The notes beneath the pieces are model-generated. The model had not been told where the DNA came from and made no database searches. It saw nothing but the letters and a program-made list of their open reading frames with translations. Made by a program: the position numbers and the translations under genes. A stretch of DNA of 49,397 nt from Acidimicrobiaceae bacterium (lineage in GTDB: Bacteria; Actinomycetota; Acidimicrobiia; Acidimicrobiales; Bog-793), in the NCBI GenBank assembly GCA_027306925.1, contig DAHUXW010000042.1, forward strand, positions 1 to 49,397, read 5' to 3'. This document shows, in pieces, positions 10,771-24,512 of this stretch; the first letter of the stretch is position 1, and every line of letters starts with the position of its first letter.

Positions 10771-11290
10771 ATGACGCGGCGCCGGGTCCTTCGGTCGGGG
10801 CGCTCGGCGGTGGCCGCGCCCGCGGTCGGACGCGTGCCGTCGCCAAGTGAGCGCCGGTCGCGCGCGACCCGCGTCCCTGCCGTGCACGCCTCGGAGCCTT
10901 CGGTGCTGGCGAGCCGAGCGACGGCTGCGACCGGCAAGATCCAGCGGTTCCGCTCCCGTCCTGACATCGCCCCGGCGGCCGAACGGATCGACATCGACCG
11001 ACCCGGCCAGGACGGCGGCCTGATCCTCATGGACAGCCACGGCGGCGTCGGGGCTCAGGGTCCGATGATCGTCGACGGCACCGGCGAGCTCGTCTGGTTC
11101 CGCACGGTGTCGCCCGATCCGATCCCCCCGAAGCGCGCATTCAACCTCGAGGTGCAGGAGTGGGGGGATGCGGGTCCTCACCTGGTTCGACGGTCCGGTC
11201 GTCGCCGACCACGGCGAGAGCGAGGACGTGATCATGGACGCGTCCTACCGGGAGATCGTGCGGGTGCAGGCAGGGGACGGCTGCCGACTT
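10771..11290 (+). pseudogene. Arylsulfotransferase (ASST) family remnant, frameshifted
   Basis: Frame 1 from an ATG at 10771 gives a basic leader (MTRRRVLRSG) and then the ASST N-terminal pattern: IQRFRSRPDI, then GAQGPMIVDGTGELVWFRTV. Near 11165 the homology jumps to another frame, continuing RVLTWFDGPVVADHGESE and IMDASYREIVRVQAGDG, which are the next conserved ASST blocks. The catalytic domain that should follow is missing. So at least one frameshift and a C-terminal deletion have destroyed a gene of usually 400-550 codons. The membrane cupredoxin gene starts about 120 bp downstream. Confidence 0.72.
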
Positions 11291-11410
11291 CGGCGCCGCG
11301 CGGCGCGCCCCCGACTTCAGGACCTTCGTCCCGGACCAATGGCACTACCTGCCGCGTCCGTCGACGAGGAGCCTTGGAGAGACAGTTCGAGCCACGACAT
11401 TGGAGGCGAT

Positions 11411-12178
11411 ATGACGGCCGCCGACGGACCAGTTCCAGACCGGCATCACCGATCTGCAGGATTCCTTGCGCTCTTCGGCGGCACCGTGCTCGCCGTGGGC
11501 GTGGTCTTCGGCGCCACGGCCGGCGTCGGCTCGATCTGGAGCGCGACGTCTGCCTCCGGAAGCTCCGCGCCGGCGCAGCCGAGCGCGCCGACCGCCTCGA
11601 CGAGCGCGCCGGCGTCGCAGCCGGCCGCGCCGAAGGCGTCCGCGACGTCTGCGACCACGAGCGGGCAGGAGTCGAGCGGTGCGGCGGACGTCGTGGCGAT
11701 CGTGCTCCAGCTCGACGACACGAGCGGCCCGGCCGGGACCATCACCGGCAGGCCCGGGTGGCCCCGGTACTCCCCGTCGTCCATCACGGTCCCGGCAGGC
11801 AAGCAGGTGACGCTCGTGATCACCAACTACGACGACGCGGCGACGCCGTTGACCGCCGCGCTCGCGAGCTACAACCAGGTGCAGGGCGGCACCGAGACGG
11901 TGAACGGTGCGACCGTGACCTCCGTCTCGAACAAGGTGATCGCGCACACATTCACCTCGCCTGAGCTCGGGGTCAATATCCCCGTGCCGCTGGCGAGCGA
12001 CGCGGGGAGCGGTTCGAACAAGACCGTCGTGCCGGCGGTCGTCACCTTCACGTTCACGCCGTCGAAGACGGGCACGTTCACCTGGCAGTGCTTCACGCCG
12101 TGCGGCAGCGGCTCGGACGGCACCGCCGGCCCGATGGCGACGCTCGGGTTCATGAAGGGGACGATCACCGTTGCCTAG
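11411..12178 (+). CDS. Membrane-anchored cupredoxin-domain protein (255 aa)
   Basis: One N-terminal membrane helix (about 17-42), a 50-residue Ala/Ser/Pro linker, then a cupredoxin domain outside the membrane. Candidate copper ligands are His179 (AHTF), Cys227 and Cys231 (CFTPCG) and Met242 or Met248. The C-x3-C spacing equals that of the CuA site of cytochrome oxidase subunit II, but the CuA histidine after the second Cys is not seen, so the site type is open (mononuclear or modified CuA). GGAGG sits 5 nt before the ATG. The gene lies first in a three-gene run converging on the Ehr complex operon, suggesting an electron-transfer role outside the cell membrane. Confidence 0.82.
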   Translation: MTAADGPVPDRHHRSAGFLALFGGTVLAVGVVFGATAGVGSIWSATSASGSSAPAQPSAPTASTSAPASQPAAPKASATSATTSGQESSGAADVVAIVLQLDDTSGPAGTITGRPGWPRYSPSSITVPAGKQVTLVITNYDDAATPLTAALASYNQVQGGTETVNGATVTSVSNKVIAHTFTSPELGVNIPVPLASDAGSGSNKTVVPAVVTFTFTPSKTGTFTWQCFTPCGSGSDGTAGPMATLGFMKGTITVA

Positions 12179-12250
12179 CGCCCACCCCGCCGCGTCGTGC
12201 GGCGCGGCTCCGTCCAAGACCACTCGTGTGCGAGGAAGCGAAGTGCAGCG

Positions 12251-12775
12251 ATGACGATGGATGACCGTTCCGAGTCCCGTTCCCGTCCGGTGTCGGGGTT
12301 CCTCACGCTCCTCGCAGGATTGGTGCTCGGCATCGGCGTGCTGCTCGGGCTCACCGCGGGCGTCGGGGCGATCTGGAGCGGGGTCACCTCGCCGGGGAGC
12401 GCCGCGGAAGGCGCCGGGCAGAGCGCATCCGGCGAGGCGGGAAACGTCGTCGATCTCGTGATCAAGGACGTCGCGACGCCGGAAGGCTCCGAGCCCGCGT
12501 ACGTCGGTCCGAGCGGTGTCGGCGCGTCCGACCTGTTCACCGCGACCGCAGGCGAGCGCGTCACCGTCGTCGTGAAGAACGAGGACGCGATGCCGCACAC
12601 CTTCACGTCCCCGGGTCTCGGGCTCAACGTCTCGATAGGACCCGGCGGAACGACCTCGTTCGTGTTCGTCGCGAAGTCGGCGGGCAGCTACCCGTTCGAC
12701 TGCGCGGTGCCCTGCGGCTCGTGGGTGATGTCCCACACCGGCTACATGCAAGGTGTTGTGAAGGTGGTCGCGTGA
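12251..12775 (+). CDS. Second membrane-anchored cupredoxin, CuA-like ligand set (174 aa)
   Basis: A paralogue of the gene upstream with the same layout: helix at 15-43 (FLTLLAGLVLGIGVLLG, then TAGVGAIWS as in its neighbour), a short linker, and a cupredoxin domain. Ligand candidates are His116 (PHTF), Cys151, Cys155, His162 and Met166, i.e. C-x3-C-x6-H-x3-M. CuA of cytochrome oxidase has C-x3-C-x3-H-x2-M, so the loop here is longer. Its stop overlaps the start of the next gene (TGATG). Starts at 12251 or 12257 are both possible. It could be a mononuclear or binuclear copper electron carrier; no haem-copper oxidase is encoded in the window. Confidence 0.83.
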   Translation: MTMDDRSESRSRPVSGFLTLLAGLVLGIGVLLGLTAGVGAIWSGVTSPGSAAEGAGQSASGEAGNVVDLVIKDVATPEGSEPAYVGPSGVGASDLFTATAGERVTVVVKNEDAMPHTFTSPGLGLNVSIGPGGTTSFVFVAKSAGSYPFDCAVPCGSWVMSHTGYMQGVVKVVA

Positions 12776-13395: not shown

Positions 13396-14904
13396 TCAGA
13401 GGTCGTTACCCGCGTACGAGAGGTTGAAGCTCTTGTTCGCGAGCGGAAAGTCCGGGACGATCGTGTTCGCGAGCGCGACCGGCAGCGCCGGCCAGTTGAA
13501 CCAGGACGGGTCGACGACCTTCACCCGCGTGAGGCGTCCGTCGGCGAGCTCGACACGGTGCACGATCGTGCCCCGCCAGCCCTCGACGACACCCGTTCCG
13601 CCGACCGGGGTCGCCGCGTCGCCCGGCGGGTCCGCCGTGTGCGCTGTCCGACCCCTGGCGCGCGCGCAGAGCTCGCGGACGAGCTCGACCGACGCGGCGA
13701 CCTCGTCGCGCCGCACGAGGAACCGCGAGAGCACGTCGCCTTCGGTGTGCACGACCGTCGCCACGGGAAGCTCGCACATGGGGTGCTCGACGCGTGCGTC
13801 GCCGGGCACGCCGCTCGCGCGGGCCACGACGCCGAGACAGCCGAGCGCCGCCGCGTCGTCGGCCGAGAGGACTGCGGTTCCGGTGAAGCGGTCTCGCACC
13901 GTCGTGTTGCGCAACGCGTTGCGCGCGACCTCGGCAGCGCCCGCGGCGATCGTGTCGAGCTCGGCGAGGTCGGGGAGCGCGCGAAGTCGGACGCCGCCCG
14001 GCGCGATCGCTCCGCGGAGCAGGCGGTGCCCGGTCACTTGCTCGTTCATGCGCAGCATCCGCTCGCGCAGCGCGAGCGCGTGCCCGTTGAGCACCGAGTA
14101 GCCGGCGTCGTTCGCCAGCGCGCCGAGATCGGCGACGTGGTTCGTGATCCGCTCGAGCTCGACGACGAGCGCCCGTAGTCGCTGCGCGTCCTCGCCCACC
14201 TCCCACGACGACGCGTCCTCGACGGCGAGCGCGTACGCGAGCGAGTGGGCGGCGGCGGTGTCACCGGAGATGCGCTCGGCGAGCTCGACCCCGTCCTCGG
14301 CGTGGCGGCCCTCGAAGCACCGTTCGACTCCGCGATGTACGAACCAAAGGCGCGCCTTCAGCTTGAGGATCGTCTCGCCCACGACCGAGAAGCGGAAGTG
14401 GCCCGGTTCGATGATGCCCGCGTGGATCGGTCCGACGGGGATCTCGTACACACCGGTGCCCTCGACCTCGAGGAACGGGTACGGCTCGGAGTCGAGGGCG
14501 AACGGCGGCGGGTCGCCCGCGTCGCGGCGCATCGGGTACCAGCCGGCTGGCCAGTTGGGGTGGCGGACGAGGCGCCGCGGCAACGGGTGGCCGACCGGCA
14601 CGACGCCGAACAGGTCGTGCATCTCGCGCTCGAAGCGGCCGGCCGGGAACGACAGGCCCGCGAGCGTCGGCACCTCGGGCCGCACGGGATCGAGATGCAC
14701 GTGCAGCTCGACTCGCCGCTCGGGCGCCGCTGCGAGGAAGAGGTAGACGCAGCGCAGCGCGCCGCCGTCGTCGTGGCACGCGACGAGTGCGAGGCGGTGC
14801 CCCTCGTCGAGCAGCGCCCGTGACTGCCCAGCCAGCTCGTCGGCGGCGACGACCCGCGCCGCGCGCCGCGATCCGCCGCGCGGATGGCACCGGCCGGTGG
14901 TCAT
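13396..14904 (-). CDS. Fused NuoC/NuoD-like (HyfG-like) large subunit of Ehr complex, no NiFe cysteines (502 aa)
   Basis: Catalytic-position subunit of a membrane complex related to group 4 hydrogenases. Residues 1-125 are a NuoC-like domain (FEREMHDLFGV, then NWPAGWYP); 150-502 are NuoD/HyfG-like (PVGPIHAGIIEPGHFRF, LWFVHRGVE). In true hydrogenases the N-terminal site reads RxCGxC; here 211-216 are RISGDT. The C-terminal site is also without Cys: DPSWFNWPAL at 465-474, followed by VPDFPLANKSFNLSYAGNDL. So no NiFe centre can form, as in published energy-converting hydrogenase related (Ehr) complexes. It is the last gene of the operon, overlapping the preceding stop by 4 nt (ATGA). The much longer open frame to 15897 is a GC artefact. 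Confidence 0.9.
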   Translation of the reverse strand: MTTGRCHPRGGSRRAARVVAADELAGQSRALLDEGHRLALVACHDDGGALRCVYLFLAAAPERRVELHVHLDPVRPEVPTLAGLSFPAGRFEREMHDLFGVVPVGHPLPRRLVRHPNWPAGWYPMRRDAGDPPPFALDSEPYPFLEVEGTGVYEIPVGPIHAGIIEPGHFRFSVVGETILKLKARLWFVHRGVERCFEGRHAEDGVELAERISGDTAAAHSLAYALAVEDASSWEVGEDAQRLRALVVELERITNHVADLGALANDAGYSVLNGHALALRERMLRMNEQVTGHRLLRGAIAPGGVRLRALPDLAELDTIAAGAAEVARNALRNTTVRDRFTGTAVLSADDAAALGCLGVVARASGVPGDARVEHPMCELPVATVVHTEGDVLSRFLVRRDEVAASVELVRELCARARGRTAHTADPPGDAATPVGGTGVVEGWRGTIVHRVELADGRLTRVKVVDPSWFNWPALPVALANTIVPDFPLANKSFNLSYAGNDL

Positions 14905-16373
14905 CGCGCCCCGAGCACGGTCGCCGCGGTCTCGAGCAGGTGCGGGTACGGACCGCCGACGACCCCGAGCACGACGAGCACGGCGACGCCGAGCACGACC
15001 GGCACCGCGACGGGTCGCGTGACCGCGATCGCCGGGCTTCCGGCGCGCGCCGGTCCGAGGAGCATCGCGGCGCCGTGGTTCACGATCGACGCGTACCCGA
15101 CGACGAGCAGGACGAGCGCGACGCCGAGGGCGGGCGCCAGGTGCGCGTCGGCCATGCCGCGCGCGATCGCGAGCTCGCCGCCGAACAGCGCGAACGGCGG
15201 GAGGCCGACCAGCCCGAGAAGCCCGGCCCCGATCGCCGCGCCGAGCAGCGGTGAGCGCGCGGCGATGCCGGTGAGGTCCGCGATCGAGCTCGAGCCGTGC
15301 ACGTGCTGCAGCTCGCCGGCGGAGATGAACAGCACGGCCTTCACGACGCCGTGCGCGGTGACGACGAGCAGCAGCCCCGCGATCGCGAGCCGTGTGCCCG
15401 CGGCCGCCGCGACCGCGATGAGCCCCATCTGCTCGAGGCTCGAGTACGCGAGCAGCCGCTTCAAGTCGCGCTGCGCGACGAGCAGCGACACAGCGACGAG
15501 AAGCGTCGCGAGGCCCGTGACGAGCAGCCAGTCGCGCGCGAATCCGGGGCCGAGCGCCGAGTCCGCCAGGGCGCGCACGCGCAGCACGACGGAGAACGCG
15601 ACCGAGAGGAGCACGCCGCTCATCAGCGCGGACACCGGCGCGGGCGCCTGGCTGTGCGCGTCGGCGAGCCACGTGTGGAACGGTACGAGGCCGGCTTTGG
15701 TGCCGAAGCCCACGAGCATGAGCCCGACCGCGAGGCGTGCCGTCGCAGGGTCGAGGTGGCTCGCGCGCGACGCGAGGACGTCGAGGTCGAGCGCGCTCGT
15801 GGGCGAGGCACCCGCGTGGATCGAGGCGAAGTACAAGATGACGACGCCGAAGAACGCGAGCGTGATCCCGAGCGAGCAGATGACGACGTACTTCCACGTC
15901 GCCTCGAGCGACTGGCGGGTGCGCCGGTGCCCGACGAGGAAGGCGGTCGCGACGGTGGTCGCCTCGACTGCCACCCAGACGACGCCTAGGTTGTCGGCGA
16001 GCACTGCGAGCGACATCGCCGCGAGGAACACCTGCACCAGCACCTCGTACTGGCGCGCGGCGGCGGGGGTCGTCGCGCCGTCCGCGAGCTCCGCGTCCAG
16101 GTAGCCGACGCCGGCGAACGTCGCGAGCGCGCCGACGACGCCGATCACGATCACCATGACCGCCGCGGCCGCGTCGGCGCGCAGCAGGTGCGCGTCGGCG
16201 ACGACGTGGCCGGATCCGACGCGCGCGGCGATCGCGATGCCGGCGGCGAGCACCGCTAGCGACGCGGCGATCCCGGACCAGCCGGAGAGGCTGCGCCGTC
16301 GGGAGACGAGCGCGACTGCGGCGGCCACGAGTGGTGCGCCGACGGGGACGGCGATCAGCGCGGAGACGCTCAC
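14901..16373 (-). CDS. HyfF-like antiporter-type membrane subunit of Ehr complex (490 aa)
   Basis: Member of the NuoL/M/N-Mrp antiporter family, with about 14 helices. It keeps the residues used for ion translocation: Glu in the helix WVAVEATTVATAF, Lys in GFGTKAGLVPFHTWLADAHS, the broken-helix block APAPVSALMSG, Lys in DLKRLLAYSSLEQMG and a late Lys in THGVVKAVLFIS. This suggests it can pump H+ or Na+. GTG start; it overlaps both neighbours by 4 nt (GTGA upstream, ATGA downstream). Length fits hydrogenase-4 subunit F. Confidence 0.9.
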   Translation of the reverse strand: MSVSALIAVPVGAPLVAAAVALVSRRRSLSGWSGIAASLAVLAAGIAIAARVGSGHVVADAHLLRADAAAAVMVIVIGVVGALATFAGVGYLDAELADGATTPAAARQYEVLVQVFLAAMSLAVLADNLGVVWVAVEATTVATAFLVGHRRTRQSLEATWKYVVICSLGITLAFFGVVILYFASIHAGASPTSALDLDVLASRASHLDPATARLAVGLMLVGFGTKAGLVPFHTWLADAHSQAPAPVSALMSGVLLSVAFSVVLRVRALADSALGPGFARDWLLVTGLATLLVAVSLLVAQRDLKRLLAYSSLEQMGLIAVAAAAGTRLAIAGLLLVVTAHGVVKAVLFISAGELQHVHGSSSIADLTGIAARSPLLGAAIGAGLLGLVGLPPFALFGGELAIARGMADAHLAPALGVALVLLVVGYASIVNHGAAMLLGPARAGSPAIAVTRPVAVPVVLGVAVLVVLGVVGGPYPHLLETAATVLGAR

Positions 16374-17032
16374 TCCCGGAGCTCCCGCAGCTCGTCGAGG
16401 TCCGTGCCGCCGAACTTCGCGTGCATCCTCCCGGCTAGCACGCCGAGGATCACGACCGCGAGGAGCACGTCGAGCGACGCGCCGAGCTCGACGACCACCG
16501 GGACGCCGAGCGTCGCGAGGAACGCGACCGCGTCGATGCCGTTGTCGAGCACGAGGAACGCGACGACCTGTGACAGGGCCTTGCGGCGCGTGACGAGGAG
16601 GAAGACGCCGATGAGCACGAGCGCGTAGCCGACCGGGGCGGCGCGCGCCGCGGGCGACGCGTCGAGGCGGACGAGCGGCCGGCTGAGCGCGTAGGCGACG
16701 ATCACGAGCGTCGCGGTGACGAGCAGCGACGCGGTCGTGTTCACGAGCGGGGCGCCCTCGCGTTCGTGCGCGAGCTCTCCGCGAAGGCGTACGGCGATGA
16801 GCTTCGGGAACACGACCGCGCGCAGCGCCACCACGGCGACGCCGACGACGGCGAGCTGGACGTCGCCGCGGCGGATCCCGGAGAGGATCGGGATCGCGCC
16901 GAGCGCTGCGCCCTGCACGGCGAGCAGTCGCGCGGTCGCCTGGAGGTCCCGCCGCCACACGACGAGGACGGCGCTGAGCAGGAGCGCGCCGGCCGCGAGG
17001 TCGACGAGCGTCGCGTACGTGTGGGCGCTCAC
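16370..17032 (-). CDS. HyfE-like (NuoK-related) membrane subunit of Ehr complex (220 aa)
   Basis: Six or seven predicted helices. The C-terminal half (VLIGVFLLVTRRKALSQVV, then LVLDNGIDAVAFL) has the HyfE pattern, in which part of the protein corresponds to NuoK. Its TGA overlaps the GTG of the HyfF-like gene. A 24-nt spacer separates it from the NuoH-like gene upstream, the only non-overlapping joint in the operon. Expected to sit between the NuoH-like and antiporter-like subunits. Confidence 0.85.
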   Translation of the reverse strand: MSAHTYATLVDLAAGALLLSAVLVVWRRDLQATARLLAVQGAALGAIPILSGIRRGDVQLAVVGVAVVALRAVVFPKLIAVRLRGELAHEREGAPLVNTTASLLVTATLVIVAYALSRPLVRLDASPAARAAPVGYALVLIGVFLLVTRRKALSQVVAFLVLDNGIDAVAFLATLGVPVVVELGASLDVLLAVVILGVLAGRMHAKFGGTDLDELRELRE

Positions 17033-17056: not shown

Positions 17057-18019
17057 TCACGCGCCGCGCGGCGCGATGAAGTACGCGGCCGTCACGGCGA
17101 GCAGGCCGAGCAGGAACGACCCGGCGAGAAGCTCCGGCACTCGGAACATCCGGACCTTCGCGACGAACACCTCGCCGGCCGCGAGCGCTCCCGCGAGCAG
17201 TGCGGTCTTCGCGGCGATCGCGCCGACGCCGACGACGAGCCCCGCGGCGCCCGCGTGCGCGCCGGCGATACCGATCGGGAGGTAGAGGTTCGCGAGCAGC
17301 CCGACGAGCACGGCGAGCCGCATCGACGCGCCCCATTCGACGAGTGCGAGGCGATGCCCGGAGTACTCGAGGACCATCGCCTCGTGGACCATCGTGAGCT
17401 CGAGGTGCGTCGCGGGGTTGTCGATCGGGAGCCTGCCGGTCTCGGCCGCGATGACGACGACCAGCGCGGCAAACGCGAGGGCGCCGGCCGGCGTGAGCAC
17501 GTCGCCCGGCCGGTGCGCGGTTGCGGTGACGATCGCCGCCAGGTTCGAGGAGTTCGCCCGGATCGATAGCGCGAACACCGCGACGAGGATTGCCGGCTCC
17601 ACGAGCGCCGCGATCGTCGTCTCGCGGCTCGCACCCATCCCACCGAACGGCGTGCCGGTGTCGAGTGCCGCGAGGATCAGCGCGACGGTCGCGATCAGCA
17701 GTAGCCCGACGACGACGAACAGGTCCCCGACGCCGTCCATCGGCGACGCGACGGTCACGGTCGGAACGGTCGCGGCGACGACGAGCATCGTCGCCGCGAT
17801 GAACGCGGGCGCCGTCGCGAACACGACCGTGCTCCCCTCGGGAACGATCGACTGCTTGCGGGCGAGCTTGCGAAGGTCGCGGTAGGGCTGGAGCACGCCG
17901 GAGCCGATCCGGCCCTCGAGGAGCGCGCGGACCTGGCGCATCCAGCCGACGAGCAGCGGGGCGCCGGCTCCGACCGCGGCGACTTGCACGGCCGCGCCGG
18001 CGACTCCGGCTCCCGTCAC
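17057..18019 (-). CDS. NuoH/HyfC-like membrane subunit of Ehr complex (320 aa)
   Basis: Links the peripheral arm to the ion-pumping arm. About eight helices. Conserved NuoH-family signatures: GGMGASRETTIAALVEPAIL in the middle, and ETGRLPIDNPATHLELTMVH, whose Glu/Asp-rich loop lines the quinone-site entrance in complex I. MVLEYSGHRLALVEWG follows, as in HyfC. Starts at a GTG overlapping the previous stop by 4 nt; the longer frame to 18343 is antisense noise. Length matches HyfC (about 315). Confidence 0.92.
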   Translation of the reverse strand: MTGAGVAGAAVQVAAVGAGAPLLVGWMRQVRALLEGRIGSGVLQPYRDLRKLARKQSIVPEGSTVVFATAPAFIAATMLVVAATVPTVTVASPMDGVGDLFVVVGLLLIATVALILAALDTGTPFGGMGASRETTIAALVEPAILVAVFALSIRANSSNLAAIVTATAHRPGDVLTPAGALAFAALVVVIAAETGRLPIDNPATHLELTMVHEAMVLEYSGHRLALVEWGASMRLAVLVGLLANLYLPIGIAGAHAGAAGLVVGVGAIAAKTALLAGALAAGEVFVAKVRMFRVPELLAGSFLLGLLAVTAAYFIAPRGA

Positions 18020-20061
18020 CGCGCGACCGCGATCACGACGATCACCGCCAGCGCTCCGAACGCGAGGTACCGGTTCACGCTCCCGTTGTGCGCCCTTCGG
18101 ACCCACGACGCCCACGTCGCGACCGCGCCGAGCACCGGGCGGTAGCAGCGCGCCTCCACCACGTCGACGATCCGCGAGCGGTAGCGGACCCGGTCGACGA
18201 GGTAGCGGGACTCCTCGACGTGGCTGACCTCGACGTCGACGTCCGGGCGGAGCACGTCGTCGAACACCCGCTGGAGCGGCTCCGCGAACGACGTCGCCGT
18301 GTACTGCATACGCGCCGTGAGGGGCCCTCCGCCGCCCGCCCACAGCGCAGCGCGCCGGTCAGCGGGGCGCCGTGACCGGCCTGCTCGCGCGACCGCGGCG
18401 ACGAGCGCGAGCGCGGCGGCGGCGACCGCGACGGCGACGGCGATCAGACCGGGCGAGATCGAGCCGGCGATGCCCGGCAGCCGGAGCAGGAGACCGAGAT
18501 GCGGCGGCGCGCCGAAGCTCGACCCGGTGTCGAGCAGCACGCGGCGAAGCCCGGGGGCGAGGACCCCGGGCGCGACCGCGAGCACCGTACAGGCGGCGGC
18601 GACGACGGCCATCGGAGCGAGCATCGCCGCAGGGGATTCACGTGCGTCGAACGCAGCAGTGGACCGGGGGCGCGCGAGGAACCCGATCCCGAACGCCTTC
18701 GTCATCGCGGCGACGCCGAGGCCGGTGGTGAGCGCCACGACGCCGACGGCGACGGGCATGACGAGCGCGAGGAGCGTGCCGGAGCTGGGCCGGGAGTGGA
18801 TGAGGCTCTGGACGAGCAGCCACTCGCTCACGAACCCCGCGCCGAGCGGGAGACCTGCGGCGCCGAGTGCCGCGACCGAGAAGGCCCCGGTCGTCGCGGG
18901 CATGCGTCTCGCGAGGCCCCCGAGCAGGTCGAGGTCGCGGAGCCCGGTCGCGAACAGCACGGAGCCGGCCGCCATGAACGCGAGCGACTTGAACGCCGCG
19001 TGCGCGACGACGTGCAGGAGCGCAGCGGTGAGCGCGATCGTCGCGAGGGAGCGCTCGCCGTAGCCGGCGAGCAGCATCGCGGCGCCGAGCGCGAGGGTGA
19101 CGAGCCCCATGTTCTCGGTCGTCGAGTACGCGAGGAGCCGCTTCAGGTCGGTGCTCACCGACGACTGCAGCACGCCGTAGAGGGCGGACGCCGCGCCGGT
19201 CGCGACGAGGACGATCGCCCACCACCTCGGTCCCGGCCCGAGGACTTCGATGTCGATCCGGACGATGCCGTAGACGCCCATCGCGACCATCGCCGCGCTC
19301 ATGAGCGCGGACACCGGGCTCGGCGCCTCGGGGTGCGCGCGGGGCAGCCAGACGTGGAGCGGCACGAGGCCCGCCTTCGCCCCGAATCCGACGAACGTGA
19401 GGACGAAGACCGCGTCGCGGCTCGCGGACGACGCCGACGCGGCTCGACTCGTGAGCGCGACGAGCCCGTCGGCGCGTCCCGACGCGGCGAGCACGACGAG
19501 GCCGACGAGGACCGCGGCGAAGCCGAGATGGGTCATCACCGCGTACCACCGCGCGGCGTCGCGCACCGCGGGCCGGTCGTGGTCGGCGAGGATCGCGACG
19601 AGGGAGGCGACCGCCATGAGCTCCCAGGTCGCGAGGAACGTGGAGACCGAGCCCGCGAGCGGGACGAGCAGCATCGTCGCGACGAACGCGGGGACCGCTG
19701 CGAGCTGCAGCGGGCTGCTACGGCCGTGACGTCCGTAGCCGATGCCGTAGACGCCGGCTGCGGCGGCGACGAGACCGACGACGACCATGAACGCCCCACC
19801 GGTCGCGCCGGCGGCGAGCGTTACGCCCGCGAGCGGTCCGAGCGACCCGACGTGGATCGGCCCGATGCCCCGAACGACCGCGACGACGCCGGTCGCCGCG
19901 CCCGCCGCGCCCAGAGCGGTGGTCGTGACGCCCGCGATCGCCACCGCACCCGGCGCACGCTCGGCGCGGCCGTCCGGCGCGCCCGTCGCGGGACTGTCGC
20001 CGTCCGCGGGTGGCGCGGGACCGACGGGTCGGGCGACGTCCCCGTGCGCGACCCCGGTCAT
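18016..20061 (-). CDS. HyfB-like (NuoL/M-type) antiporter subunit of Ehr complex (681 aa)
   Basis: The largest pump subunit. After a hydrophilic N-terminus (about 40 residues, Pro/Ala/Asp-rich) come about 14-16 helices with the family's key residues: Glu in LATWELMAVASLVA, Lys in GFGAKAGLVPLHVWLPRAHP, the EAPSPVSALMS broken helix, Lys in DLKRLLAYSTTENMG, Lys in AHAAFKSLAFMAAG. The C-terminal 130 residues form a charged amphipathic stretch ending in a last helix (NGSVNRYLAFGALAVIVVI). Both ends overlap neighbours by 4 nt. Length matches hydrogenase-4 component B (about 670). Confidence 0.92.
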   Translation of the reverse strand: MTGVAHGDVARPVGPAPPADGDSPATGAPDGRAERAPGAVAIAGVTTTALGAAGAATGVVAVVRGIGPIHVGSLGPLAGVTLAAGATGGAFMVVVGLVAAAAGVYGIGYGRHGRSSPLQLAAVPAFVATMLLVPLAGSVSTFLATWELMAVASLVAILADHDRPAVRDAARWYAVMTHLGFAAVLVGLVVLAASGRADGLVALTSRAASASSASRDAVFVLTFVGFGAKAGLVPLHVWLPRAHPEAPSPVSALMSAAMVAMGVYGIVRIDIEVLGPGPRWWAIVLVATGAASALYGVLQSSVSTDLKRLLAYSTTENMGLVTLALGAAMLLAGYGERSLATIALTAALLHVVAHAAFKSLAFMAAGSVLFATGLRDLDLLGGLARRMPATTGAFSVAALGAAGLPLGAGFVSEWLLVQSLIHSRPSSGTLLALVMPVAVGVVALTTGLGVAAMTKAFGIGFLARPRSTAAFDARESPAAMLAPMAVVAAACTVLAVAPGVLAPGLRRVLLDTGSSFGAPPHLGLLLRLPGIAGSISPGLIAVAVAVAAAALALVAAVARAGRSRRPADRRAALWAGGGGPLTARMQYTATSFAEPLQRVFDDVLRPDVDVEVSHVEESRYLVDRVRYRSRIVDVVEARCYRPVLGAVATWASWVRRAHNGSVNRYLAFGALAVIVVIAVAR

Positions 20062-20534
20062 CGACCGGTCACGCTCCGCAGGCCGGCGATGATCTCCGCC
20101 GGGTGCGGGGGGCAGCCACGCACCTCGACGTCCGGTGGCACGACCGAGCTCACCGGCCCCACCACTCCGTACGCGCCGGAGAACACGCCACCGTCGCACG
20201 CGCAGTCGCCTACGGCGACGACGGCTCGCGGCTCGGGCGTCGCGTCGACCGTCGTGCGCAGCGCGTCCGCGAGGTTGCGCGTCACGACGCCGGTCACGAG
20301 GAGCGCGTCGGCGTGACGCGGGGAGGCGACGAGGCGGATGCCGTAGCGCTCTGCGTCGTAGACGGGGGAGAAGCAGCCCGTGAGCTCGATCTCGCACCCG
20401 TTGCACGAGCCGGCATCGACGTGGCGCACGTGGAGGGACGTCCGTGAGCCGACGTCGAGCGCAACCCGCGTCGGCGGCTCCGGCGCGTGCTCTGCGATCC
20501 GACCGAGGCGGAGGATCGTGCTCATCAGGCCCAT
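20058..20534 (-). CDS. NuoB/HyfI-like FeS small subunit of Ehr complex (158 aa)
   Basis: Peripheral-arm subunit that holds the terminal 4Fe-4S cluster (N2 in complex I, proximal in hydrogenases). The four ligands are all there: Cys44 and Cys47 (GSCNGCEIEL), Cys111 (GDCACDGG) and Cys141 (RGCPPHP). Thus electron delivery is kept although the partner large subunit has lost its NiFe cysteines. Start 20534 is chosen for AGGAG 5 nt upstream; ATG at 20525 is an alternative. First gene of the operon; its TGA overlaps the ATG of the HyfB-like gene. Confidence 0.92.
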   Translation of the reverse strand: MGLMSTILRLGRIAEHAPEPPTRVALDVGSRTSLHVRHVDAGSCNGCEIELTGCFSPVYDAERYGIRLVASPRHADALLVTGVVTRNLADALRTTVDATPEPRAVVAVGDCACDGGVFSGAYGVVGPVSSVVPPDVEVRGCPPHPAEIIAGLRSVTGR

Positions 20535-20708: not shown

Positions 20709-21062
20709 TCAGCGCTTCGTCGCGACCGGAGCCGGCGGCTCGCTCTCGAGCTCCGCGAGCATCTCGGCCGACGCCGTGAGCGACGAGGTGAGGATCCGCT
20801 TCGCGACCGCGAGCAGCTCGGAGATCTCGGCGTTCGCCATCGAGTAGAAGACGCTCGACCCCTCCTTGCGGGTCTGCACGAGGTTCGCCCGGCGCAAGAT
20901 CGCGAGCTGCTGGGACAGATGCGACGCCTCGATCCCGACCTCGGGGACGAGCTGGCCCACCGACTGCTCGCCCTCGCTCAGCAGCTCGAGCACGCGGATC
21001 CGCGCCGGATGCCCGAGCGTCTTGAAGAACTCGGCCTTCAGCTGGTAGATGGGCACGGTCAC
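20709..21062 (-). CDS. ArsR/SmtB-family transcriptional regulator (117 aa)
   Basis: Dimeric winged-helix repressor type. Residues 9-90 carry the fold: FFKTLGHPARIRVLELL, then the recognition helix region VGIEASHLSQQLAILRRANL, and a wing KEGSSVFYSM. No CxC metal motif of ArsR or cysteine pair is present; the protein has no cysteine at all, so a metal thiolate sensor is unlikely; another ligand or redox-independent signal is implied. It is encoded 174 bp upstream of the Ehr operon on the same strand with the AT-rich dyad between, so it may control that operon and itself. Confidence 0.88.
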   Translation of the reverse strand: MTVPIYQLKAEFFKTLGHPARIRVLELLSEGEQSVGQLVPEVGIEASHLSQQLAILRRANLVQTRKEGSSVFYSMANAEISELLAVAKRILTSSLTASAEMLAELESEPPAPVATKR

Positions 21063-23045: not shown

Positions 23046-23213
23046 CGGCGCGCTCCGGTCTCCAGGTGCTCGGCCACGGTGTCTCCTCCGGTCGCCTGAC
23101 AGGTTCCCACGCGCGGCCGCCGGTGCGCTGCTCGTCGGGTGGGAGCCCCGCGGCACGGGTCGTCGGGACTTCCGACTCTGGTGCGCGCGTCGCCTCGGAC
23201 CGAGACTCGCCCC

Positions 23214-24512
23214 GTGGACCACTCGCCGGCACTCGCTCCGGTCACTTCGACGGTGGACCGGGGCGGTGGTGCCGCGGGCGTGGCCGCGCACCCCTCCGGC
23301 TCGCGCGTCGACCGCCGCCGCTTCGACGACCGGCCGCTGCTCGTGTTCTGGGAGACCACGAAGGCGTGCGACCTCGTCTGCGTGCACTGCCGGGCGTCCG
23401 CGCAGCGCACGCCGGGGCCCGGCGAGCTCTCGAGCCCAGAGGCCCGCGCGCTCGTCGACGAGCTCGCCTCGATCGGGAGCCCGCGCCCGATCCTCGTGCT
23501 GACGGGCGGCGACTGCCTGAAGCGTCCGGACCTGCTCGACGTCGCGGCGCACGCGCAGCTGCGGCGGGTGCCGCTCGCGATCGCGCCGTCCGTGTCACCG
23601 CTCCTCGACGACGTCACGCTCGCCGCGCTGTACGCGCGCGGCGTGCGGACCGCGTCGCTGAGCCTCGACGGGGCGAGCGCTCGCGCCCACGAGCAGGTCC
23701 GCGGGATCCCGGGGCACTTCGTCGCGACGCTCGCCGCGATCGGCACGCTCCGGCGCAACGGGTTCAAGGTCCAGGTGAACACCACGGTGATGGCCTCGAA
23801 CCTCGAGGAGCTCGCCGACGTGGCCGTGCGCTGCCACGACGCCGGCGTCGACGTCTGGGAGGTGTTCTTCCTCGTCGCCACCGGGCGCGGGACGGACGTC
23901 GAGGCGACCAGCGCTGCGCAGAACGAGGACGTGTGCCACTTCCTCGTCGACGCCTCCCGCTACGGCTTCACGGTCCGGACCGTCGAGGCACCGTTCTTCC
24001 GCCGGGTGGCAGCGGAGCGCAGGGCGCAGAGCGCTCGAGCGGGCGACCGAAACCCGGCGGGCACGGGACCCCTCTACGCGCGGCTTCACGCCCGGCTCGA
24101 GCAGGCGCTCGGCCCGCCGGCGCTGCCTGTGCGGGCACCGAGTGCCGCGACGAGAGACGGCAAGGGCGTCGTGTTCGTCGCCGCGGACGGCGGCGTGCAC
24201 CCGTCCGGTTTCCTGCCGGTGCGAGTCGGCGACGTCCGCGACGGCGGCCTCGTCGCGGCGTATCGCGACGCCCCGTTGCTGCGATCGATCCGGAGCGGCG
24301 CGTTCGACGGCCCGTGCGGGCGGTGCGCGTACACGGACCTCTGCGGAGGATCCCGGGCGCGCGCGTTCGCGGCGTCGGGAGATCCGCTCGGCTCCGACCC
24401 CGGGTGCGTGCGGGTCGCGGCCTCGTTCGATTCCTCGCCGTCGCCGACCGACCCACGCCGGCCCGCGGCCGGCACGCCGACGCCGACCACGAGGTCGAAC
24501 GTGAGGGGCTAG
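23214..24512 (+). CDS. Radical SAM/SPASM-domain protein, NirJ/AhbD-like (TIGR04053-like, about 432 aa)
   Basis: Radical SAM enzyme: with the GTG at 23214, the cluster motif is C52-x3-C56-x2-C59 (CDLVCVHC) preceded by WETTKA; LTGGDCLKR follows as the SAM-binding GGE-like motif. The C-terminal SPASM-type cysteines are CGRCAYTDLCGG with SRARAFAASGDPL and DPGC. This ending is the one seen in haem-d1/alternative haem maturases and the related TIGR04053 group. No other haem genes are near, so substrate is unknown. The start is uncertain: GTG codons at 23139, 23214 and 23253 are in frame, and conserved sequence begins about 23325. Confidence 0.85.
   Translation: MDHSPALAPVTSTVDRGGGAAGVAAHPSGSRVDRRRFDDRPLLVFWETTKACDLVCVHCRASAQRTPGPGELSSPEARALVDELASIGSPRPILVLTGGDCLKRPDLLDVAAHAQLRRVPLAIAPSVSPLLDDVTLAALYARGVRTASLSLDGASARAHEQVRGIPGHFVATLAAIGTLRRNGFKVQVNTTVMASNLEELADVAVRCHDAGVDVWEVFFLVATGRGTDVEATSAAQNEDVCHFLVDASRYGFTVRTVEAPFFRRVAAERRAQSARAGDRNPAGTGPLYARLHARLEQALGPPALPVRAPSAATRDGKGVVFVAADGGVHPSGFLPVRVGDVRDGGLVAAYRDAPLLRSIRSGAFDGPCGRCAYTDLCGGSRARAFAASGDPLGSDPGCVRVAASFDSSPSPTDPRRPAAGTPTPTTRSNVRG

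Follow-up and report, generated by a model that had tools for sequence, protein, structure and literature searches.

The window analysed here (49,397 nucleotides, contig DAHUXW010000042.1 of an Acidimicrobiaceae bacterium) encodes an Ehr-type complex whose large subunit lacks every ligand of the NiFe site and holds in its place a polar pocket that is conserved across several phyla, including in relatives whose small subunit has lost its [4Fe-4S] ligands. On balance, and with slightly less than even confidence, the complex is read as an Mrp-like pump bearing a head that would be proton-coupled and ligand- or redox-gated, with no obligatory electron conduit. Ehr complexes, for which the key paper is reportedly that of Marreiros et al. 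from 2013, are widespread (mycobacteria, streptomycetes, Nitrospira, Acidobacteria, Verrucomicrobia and CPR).

The initial annotation had placed a large subunit at positions 13396-14904. These coordinates were correct; the coding strand is the minus strand (ATG at 14904, TGA at 13396, 502 amino acids), the plus strand carrying stops there. The protein is a NuoC/HycE-NuoD fusion with a NuoC-like domain (PF00329) at its N-terminus and a NuoD/NiFe large-subunit domain (PF00346, PF00374) at its C-terminus. Its gene is the last of a seven-gene cluster in the order ArsR, NuoB-, HyfB-, NuoH-, HyfE- and HyfF-like, large subunit (Table 1), in which successive complex genes overlap by a few bases except at the NuoH-HyfE junction. 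The HyfF-like subunit retains the pump residues E137, K226, K305, H341, K345 and E400. Genes were read by ORF and HMM, and NuoEFG and NuoI were absent from the window operon. One operon thus holds Mrp-type antiporter subunits, HyfE, NuoH and a small subunit, together with a large subunit that is homologous to group 4/NuoD and lacks Ni/Fe ligands; the locus belongs to the Ehr-type complexes, a known kind.

Table 1. Genes of the complex and sites within its large subunit (window positions).
Feature	Coordinates	Strand	Basis or remark
Large subunit, HyfG/HycE/NuoCD-like, 502 aa	13396..14904	-	ORF, domain profiles, AF2, structural match
HyfF/NuoL-M-N-like antiporter subunit	14901..16373	-	GTG start overlaps HyfE stop
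HyfE-like membrane subunit	16370..17032	-	Hydrogenase 4 membrane subunit profile, 1.3e-21, under curated cut-off
NuoH/HycD-like membrane anchor	17057..18019	-	Acidic channel residues conserved
HyfB-like antiporter subunit	18016..20061	-	ATG 20061 overlaps NuoB stop
NuoB/HycG-like small subunit	20058..20534	-	Four cluster Cys present
ArsR/SmtB-family regulator, first in cluster, Rv0081 position	20709..21062	-	Domain profiles, neighbourhood
L1 site RISGDT (211-216)	14257..14274	-	Ser213, Thr216 at Cys columns; Gly214 = Tyr87 column
True L2 site NLSYAGNDL (494-502)	13399..13425	-	Alignment with DPCxxC / DPCYSC
beta1-beta2 loop PIHAGIIEP (159-167)	14404..14430	-	Ile165 = complex I His38 / HycE Asp192; Glu166 = HycE Glu193

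Elsewhere in the window, two neighbouring genes with weak to clear cupredoxin-like domains lie on the plus strand (11168-12178 and 12197-12775). Upstream of the ArsR gene, a radical SAM protein (23139-24512, plus strand) and a pair of ABC transporter genes are divergently arranged. The same genome carries an ordinary complex I NuoD on a different contig; contig C71 holds another large subunit, of the NiFe type, and a HycI-type protease is also encoded in the genome. HypA (PF01155) had no match in the genome, a negative that is uninformative because the genome seems to hold another hydrogenase.

Alignment with NuoD and HycE bore out the initial annotation on its central point: neither Ni/Fe-ligand pair was present, RISGDT stands in place of RxCGxC, and all four NiFe cysteines were missing, as was complex I Tyr87. 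By phmmer, ERISGDTAAAHS lay opposite DRVCGICGFAHS of HycE and DRMDYISAICN of Aquifex NuoCD, with Ser213 in the column of Cys1, Thr216 in that of Cys2 and Gly214 in that of Tyr87. Two details were revised. The Tyr87 column had been read as Thr; alignments with Aquifex NuoCD and a NuoD put the hydrogenase-like Gly214 there. DPSWFNW (465-471) had been taken for the C-terminal metal motif, but once the protein was aligned with a NuoD and with true hydrogenases, it fell upstream of the L2 motif, opposite AATYSNW/TPSFxN of the latter. The sequence at L2 itself, NLSYAGNDL instead of DPCxxC, forms the final nine residues of the protein, with Ser496 and Gly499 at the Cys positions and Asn494 at that of the canopy Asp. 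Because GPIHAGIIEPGHF lay opposite GPLHPGTHGTIWF, the complex I His38 column, which the initial annotation had not considered, is occupied by Ile165, and the headgroup pair His38/Tyr87 is accordingly Ile165 and Gly214. Cysteine ligands supplied from elsewhere in the chain were not found, none of its seven cysteines being conserved in the family.

Using published HycE residue assignments (PMC9474812), the hydrogenase beta1-beta2 loop Glu was found to be retained (Glu166 for Glu193), Arg444 and Asn494 corresponded to canopy Arg478 and Asp529, and the proton route was represented by His256, Glu401 and Arg362 (His284, Glu437 and Arg395). The chain terminates where hydrogenase pro-peptides are cut by the maturation protease in the alignment, so such a protease should be unnecessary. 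Since the Ni/Fe ligands are missing, H2 chemistry is excluded, and the complex would, judging by its residues, neither make nor oxidise H2; canonical quinone reduction is unlikely. The earlier statement that the pocket is neither that of a hydrogenase nor that of a standard quinone reductase therefore holds for the defining residues. It holds less fully for His and Tyr residues at other positions: three invariant residues, His161, His169 and Tyr497, lie in the site or at its edge, and the sequence would allow quinone binding through residues other than the usual pair.

An AF2 model built with 86 aligned homologues had a mean pLDDT of 92.4 and a pTM of 0.93, with pLDDT below 50 at residues 160-164 of the beta1-beta2 loop; it superseded an 8-sequence model (mean pLDDT 70.3) of low quality around the pocket. 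The 502-residue protein has a NuoD/NiFe-large-subunit fold without the metal ligands. Its closest solved structure by VIA-align 2 was E. coli HycE (7z0s_E; Z 46.4, rmsd 2.2, 488 residues, 29% identity), followed by complex I D subunits (Z about 41-42). HycE of E. coli was also the top phmmer match among PDB sequences (E 1.8e-52), ahead of P. furiosus MBH and subunits of complex I. The predicted geometry of the pocket was taken from homologous positions.

With HycE and HyfG of E. coli formate hydrogenlyase and hydrogenase 4 the window protein has in common the domain fusion, the beta1-beta2 loop Glu and the proton-route residues; unlike them it lacks the NiFe cysteines and a cleavable C-terminal peptide, has Asn for the canopy Asp, and is encoded at a locus where no ferredoxin or FdhF gene is conserved. 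Complex I NuoD/Nqo4 has the same fold and most of the proton route, whereas the window complex lacks His38, Tyr87 and the NuoEFGI genes, and its small subunit has CxxC where complex I has tandem Cys. P. furiosus MBS resembles it in lacking H38 and Y87 but, of the four Cys in the large subunit, still has two, and it has no beta1-beta2 Glu (PMC7684303); the window protein has that Glu and no Cys in any of the four Cys columns, and so lacks the two large-subunit Cys beside the proximal cluster that mark MBS.

Conservation was followed in a genome scan of 80 named loci from mycobacteria, Lentzea, Amycolatopsis, Streptomyces, Acidimicrobiales, Acidobacteria, Rokubacteria, Nitrospira and Verrucomicrobia, with one Methanosarcinaceae bin and one Daviesbacteria bin; none of 29 pattern matches was a viral relative. 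Across 88 aligned large subunits, G214, D215, H161, I165, H169, R244, E249, E251 and R252 were invariant, as were S496 and Y497 where covered. Homologues with a cluster-bearing small subunit had S213 in 71/74, G214 and D215 in 74/74, and S496 and Y497 in 71/71, far beyond chance. The loss of the NiFe site is not decay: about 90 homologues, spread over several phyla, show near-invariant S-G-D in loop 1 and S-Y-x-G-x-D in loop 2. Eight otherwise normal members (L034, L038, L039, L046, L047, L054, L057 and L072, reading IGPGHFRF) have Gly in place of Glu166, and several of these belong to Pseudonocardiales.

The window small subunit has C44, C47, C111 and C141 in the hydrogenase-type CxxC spacing, that is, the proximal [4Fe-4S] ligands of group 4 hydrogenases, and nearly all near relatives retain the four. 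Among about 104 loci (one contig included twice, L082 = L147), 72 had all four Cys (CCCC) and 21 had two or fewer. Targeted searches found the gene in 9/200 Microbacteriaceae genomes and 13/380 genomes of the Daviesbacteria phylum, with the ligand states ACAS, GCAS, CCCS, DDDS, DDDA, TCDD, TEDD, SEGD, TEGD, DCDN and DADN, and returned two CCCC loci whose large subunits were true NiFe types. The cysteines were lost in at least three lineages, often with Asp, Glu or Thr in their place: ACAS/GCAS in Agromyces-like actinobacterial genomes; TCDD, TEDD, SEGD, TEGD and DCDN in CPR and two actinobacterial genomes; and DDDS/DEDS in a sister actinobacterial clade. Subunits with 0-2 of the four Cys (L062 4263-4733, L147 6587-7057, L148 1678-2148, L099 4236-4820 and L155-L163) had A/G/S or T/E/D replacements in mostly intact operons, Agromyces-type and most CPR loci being complete, and no second NuoB-like gene was found in the Agromyces and Daviesbacteria genomes at E<=1e-8.

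On the large-subunit tree, the state of two or fewer Cys arose by four changes in separate places (110 rows) or by three (57 rows), and a single origin was rejected on the 57-row tree with p-AU about 4e-5, for groups named after the data had been seen. The very long branch L163 is unsurely placed. Cryobacterium CCCS/CCCN forms adjoin the ACAS/GCAS group, a placement suggestive of stepwise loss. The DDDS clade has ERVEG where RxCGxC is expected (large subunits L027, L028, L153 and L154; small subunits L173, L174, L153 and L154) and a different gene order, and is for these reasons a sister system and not the same one; it would be a second, more divergent, metal-free-looking system. In the available portions of open-licence publications, loss of NuoB cluster ligands from Ehr complexes was not found; as far as that literature shows, the loss in relatives is new.

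For the pocket, 16 cluster-less members with a window-type large subunit were compared. G214, D215, E166, E401, R444, N490, K491 and H161 were each present in 16/16, and S496, Y497 and D501 each in 14/14. In the antiporter subunits, K192/H317/K321/E376 and K226/H341/K345 were kept in 20/20; these Lys/Glu/His and the NuoH acidic residues were retained at about equal rates in cluster-less and cluster-bearing members, which was not the case for some HyfE positions. The dN/dS ratio was about 0.04-0.2 for cluster-depleted pairs with measurable dS, several dS values being near saturation or undefined, and by this measure the tested genes of cluster-depleted operons are under purifying selection. The pocket is kept regardless of the cluster, so its job would be independent of cluster electrons, in those lineages at least. 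This is a stronger argument against an electron-acceptor role of the pocket than the large subunit itself provides. It argues as well that redox cofactors are not required for the complex to work, and suggests that electron transfer may be dispensable.

In the preferred reading, two Mrp/NuoL-M-N-like ion-pumping subunits, HyfE and a NuoH anchor would carry a two-protein head made of the NuoB-like and large subunits (Ehr-type, of the Rv0082-Rv0087 kind). The former NiFe site would be a remodelled polar pocket (Ser213-Gly-Asp215, Ser496-Tyr497, Glu166, His169, Asn494 and Lys491), linked to the membrane arm by a retained proton route (Arg444, His256, Glu401 and Arg362), by NuoH acidic residues and by Lys/Glu/His of both antiporter subunits. 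We infer the coupling, the gating and the ligand: the head would act as a conformational module, proton-coupled and ligand- or redox-gated, that drives or gates H+/cation movement, and the single [4Fe-4S] cluster, where present, would modulate or sense and not serve as an obligatory conduit to a pocket substrate. Three points count against this reading. The window and nearly all near relatives keep the four Cys, so in the window branch the cluster is under selection and may carry electrons; ferredoxin motifs lie near two relatives, L169 and L170; and Geobacter Ehr subunits rise on formate, which the authors take as a redox link (PMC7894505). The broader proposal is that this branch of the complex I/group 4 hydrogenase superfamily, having lost NiFe ligands and quinone residues throughout the family, is a non-redox machine, with ligand binding or conformational change driving complex I-like translocators or gates for ions and with the window complex as a one-cluster intermediate. 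It is offered with reserve, as a conjecture somewhat less likely than not.

A redox-driven pump is also conceivable, although we doubt it: a soluble donor or acceptor would dock on the NuoB-like subunit, electrons would pass the one [4Fe-4S] cluster, and pocket redox of a small molecule would be coupled to HyfB/HyfF pumping, the cluster-less relatives being a derived, different system. The four Cys in 72 of about 104 loci, window included, the complex I-like architecture, possible ferredoxins at L169 and L170, where ferredoxin motifs lie nearby, and published FDH-Ehr proposals (PMC6349859) speak for it, but loss of the cluster leaves the pocket unaltered, which is unexpected of an electron-acceptor site, and no redox partner gene is conserved. 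Among clustered neighbours across loci, nothing recurs widely apart from the complex genes, six in number, and ArsR (family in 47 loci); neither a 2[4Fe-4S] ferredoxin nor a formate dehydrogenase nor any further redox partner was conserved beside the operon, and a partner encoded there was rejected. CxxCxxCxxxC matches occur near some loci, several of which look like chance.

Improbable, in our estimate, is a quinone reductase with non-canonical residues, in which His161/His169 and Tyr497 would take the roles of His38 and Tyr87. These residues are invariant or near-invariant, the fold is NuoD-like and the loop residues lie near the site; yet NiFe hydrogenases also have H161 and H169, and Tyr497 equals HycE Tyr532 and occurs in FHL-type enzymes too, so all three are inherited and not quinone-specific, and cluster-less relatives could supply no electrons to a quinone. 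The stepwise loss of ligands, NiFe Cys before cluster Cys, is what a functionless, decaying hydrogenase relict would display, but the near-invariant pocket, the intact operons, the purifying selection, which contradicts a relict, and the reported need for hycP/hycQ for optimal growth of M. tuberculosis (PMC2799521) make that account barely credible.

Ehr complexes with a cysteine-less large subunit are already known, from Nitrospira, Sulfobacillus and CPR among others; the available portions of the papers (PMC6349859, PMC10284858, PMC4378227, PMC7304191) give their function as unknown and describe, as in the window, a group 4-like large subunit without CxxC metal motifs, a small subunit and NuoH-, HyfE- and Mrp-like subunits. 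Those portions report the loss of the NiFe motif and do not mention a conserved replacement pocket. Nitrospira loci of our scan, as distinct from the papers' own sequences, fell in the window clade (e.g., N. moscoviensis L112), and on the large-subunit tree the window protein grouped with Acidiferrimicrobium and mycobacteria. The published gene list of M. tuberculosis Rv0081-Rv0087 (hycD/P/Q/E; PMC6901956) has gene types and order identical to the window's, a comparison made at the level of that list; the order regulator-NuoB-HyfB-NuoH-HyfE-HyfF-large subunit occurs in the window and in M. persicum L035, whose large subunit is 63% identical. The M. tuberculosis version is still annotated as a hydrogenase or formate hydrogenlyase, a name that would mislead should its sequence agree with those of the mycobacterial relatives compared here. 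The replacement pocket supplies exact residues for testing, and whether a complex I-type pump can run or be gated in the absence of electron transfer could be tested directly on the naturally occurring variants that lack cluster ligands. A Cys-bearing actinobacterial group (L015, L018, L020, L021 and L025) with RAC[GA]AC and ELCY[SA]C and without the L1 His has the DFPLxNKSF signature common to the family, and may hold an unusual metal site.
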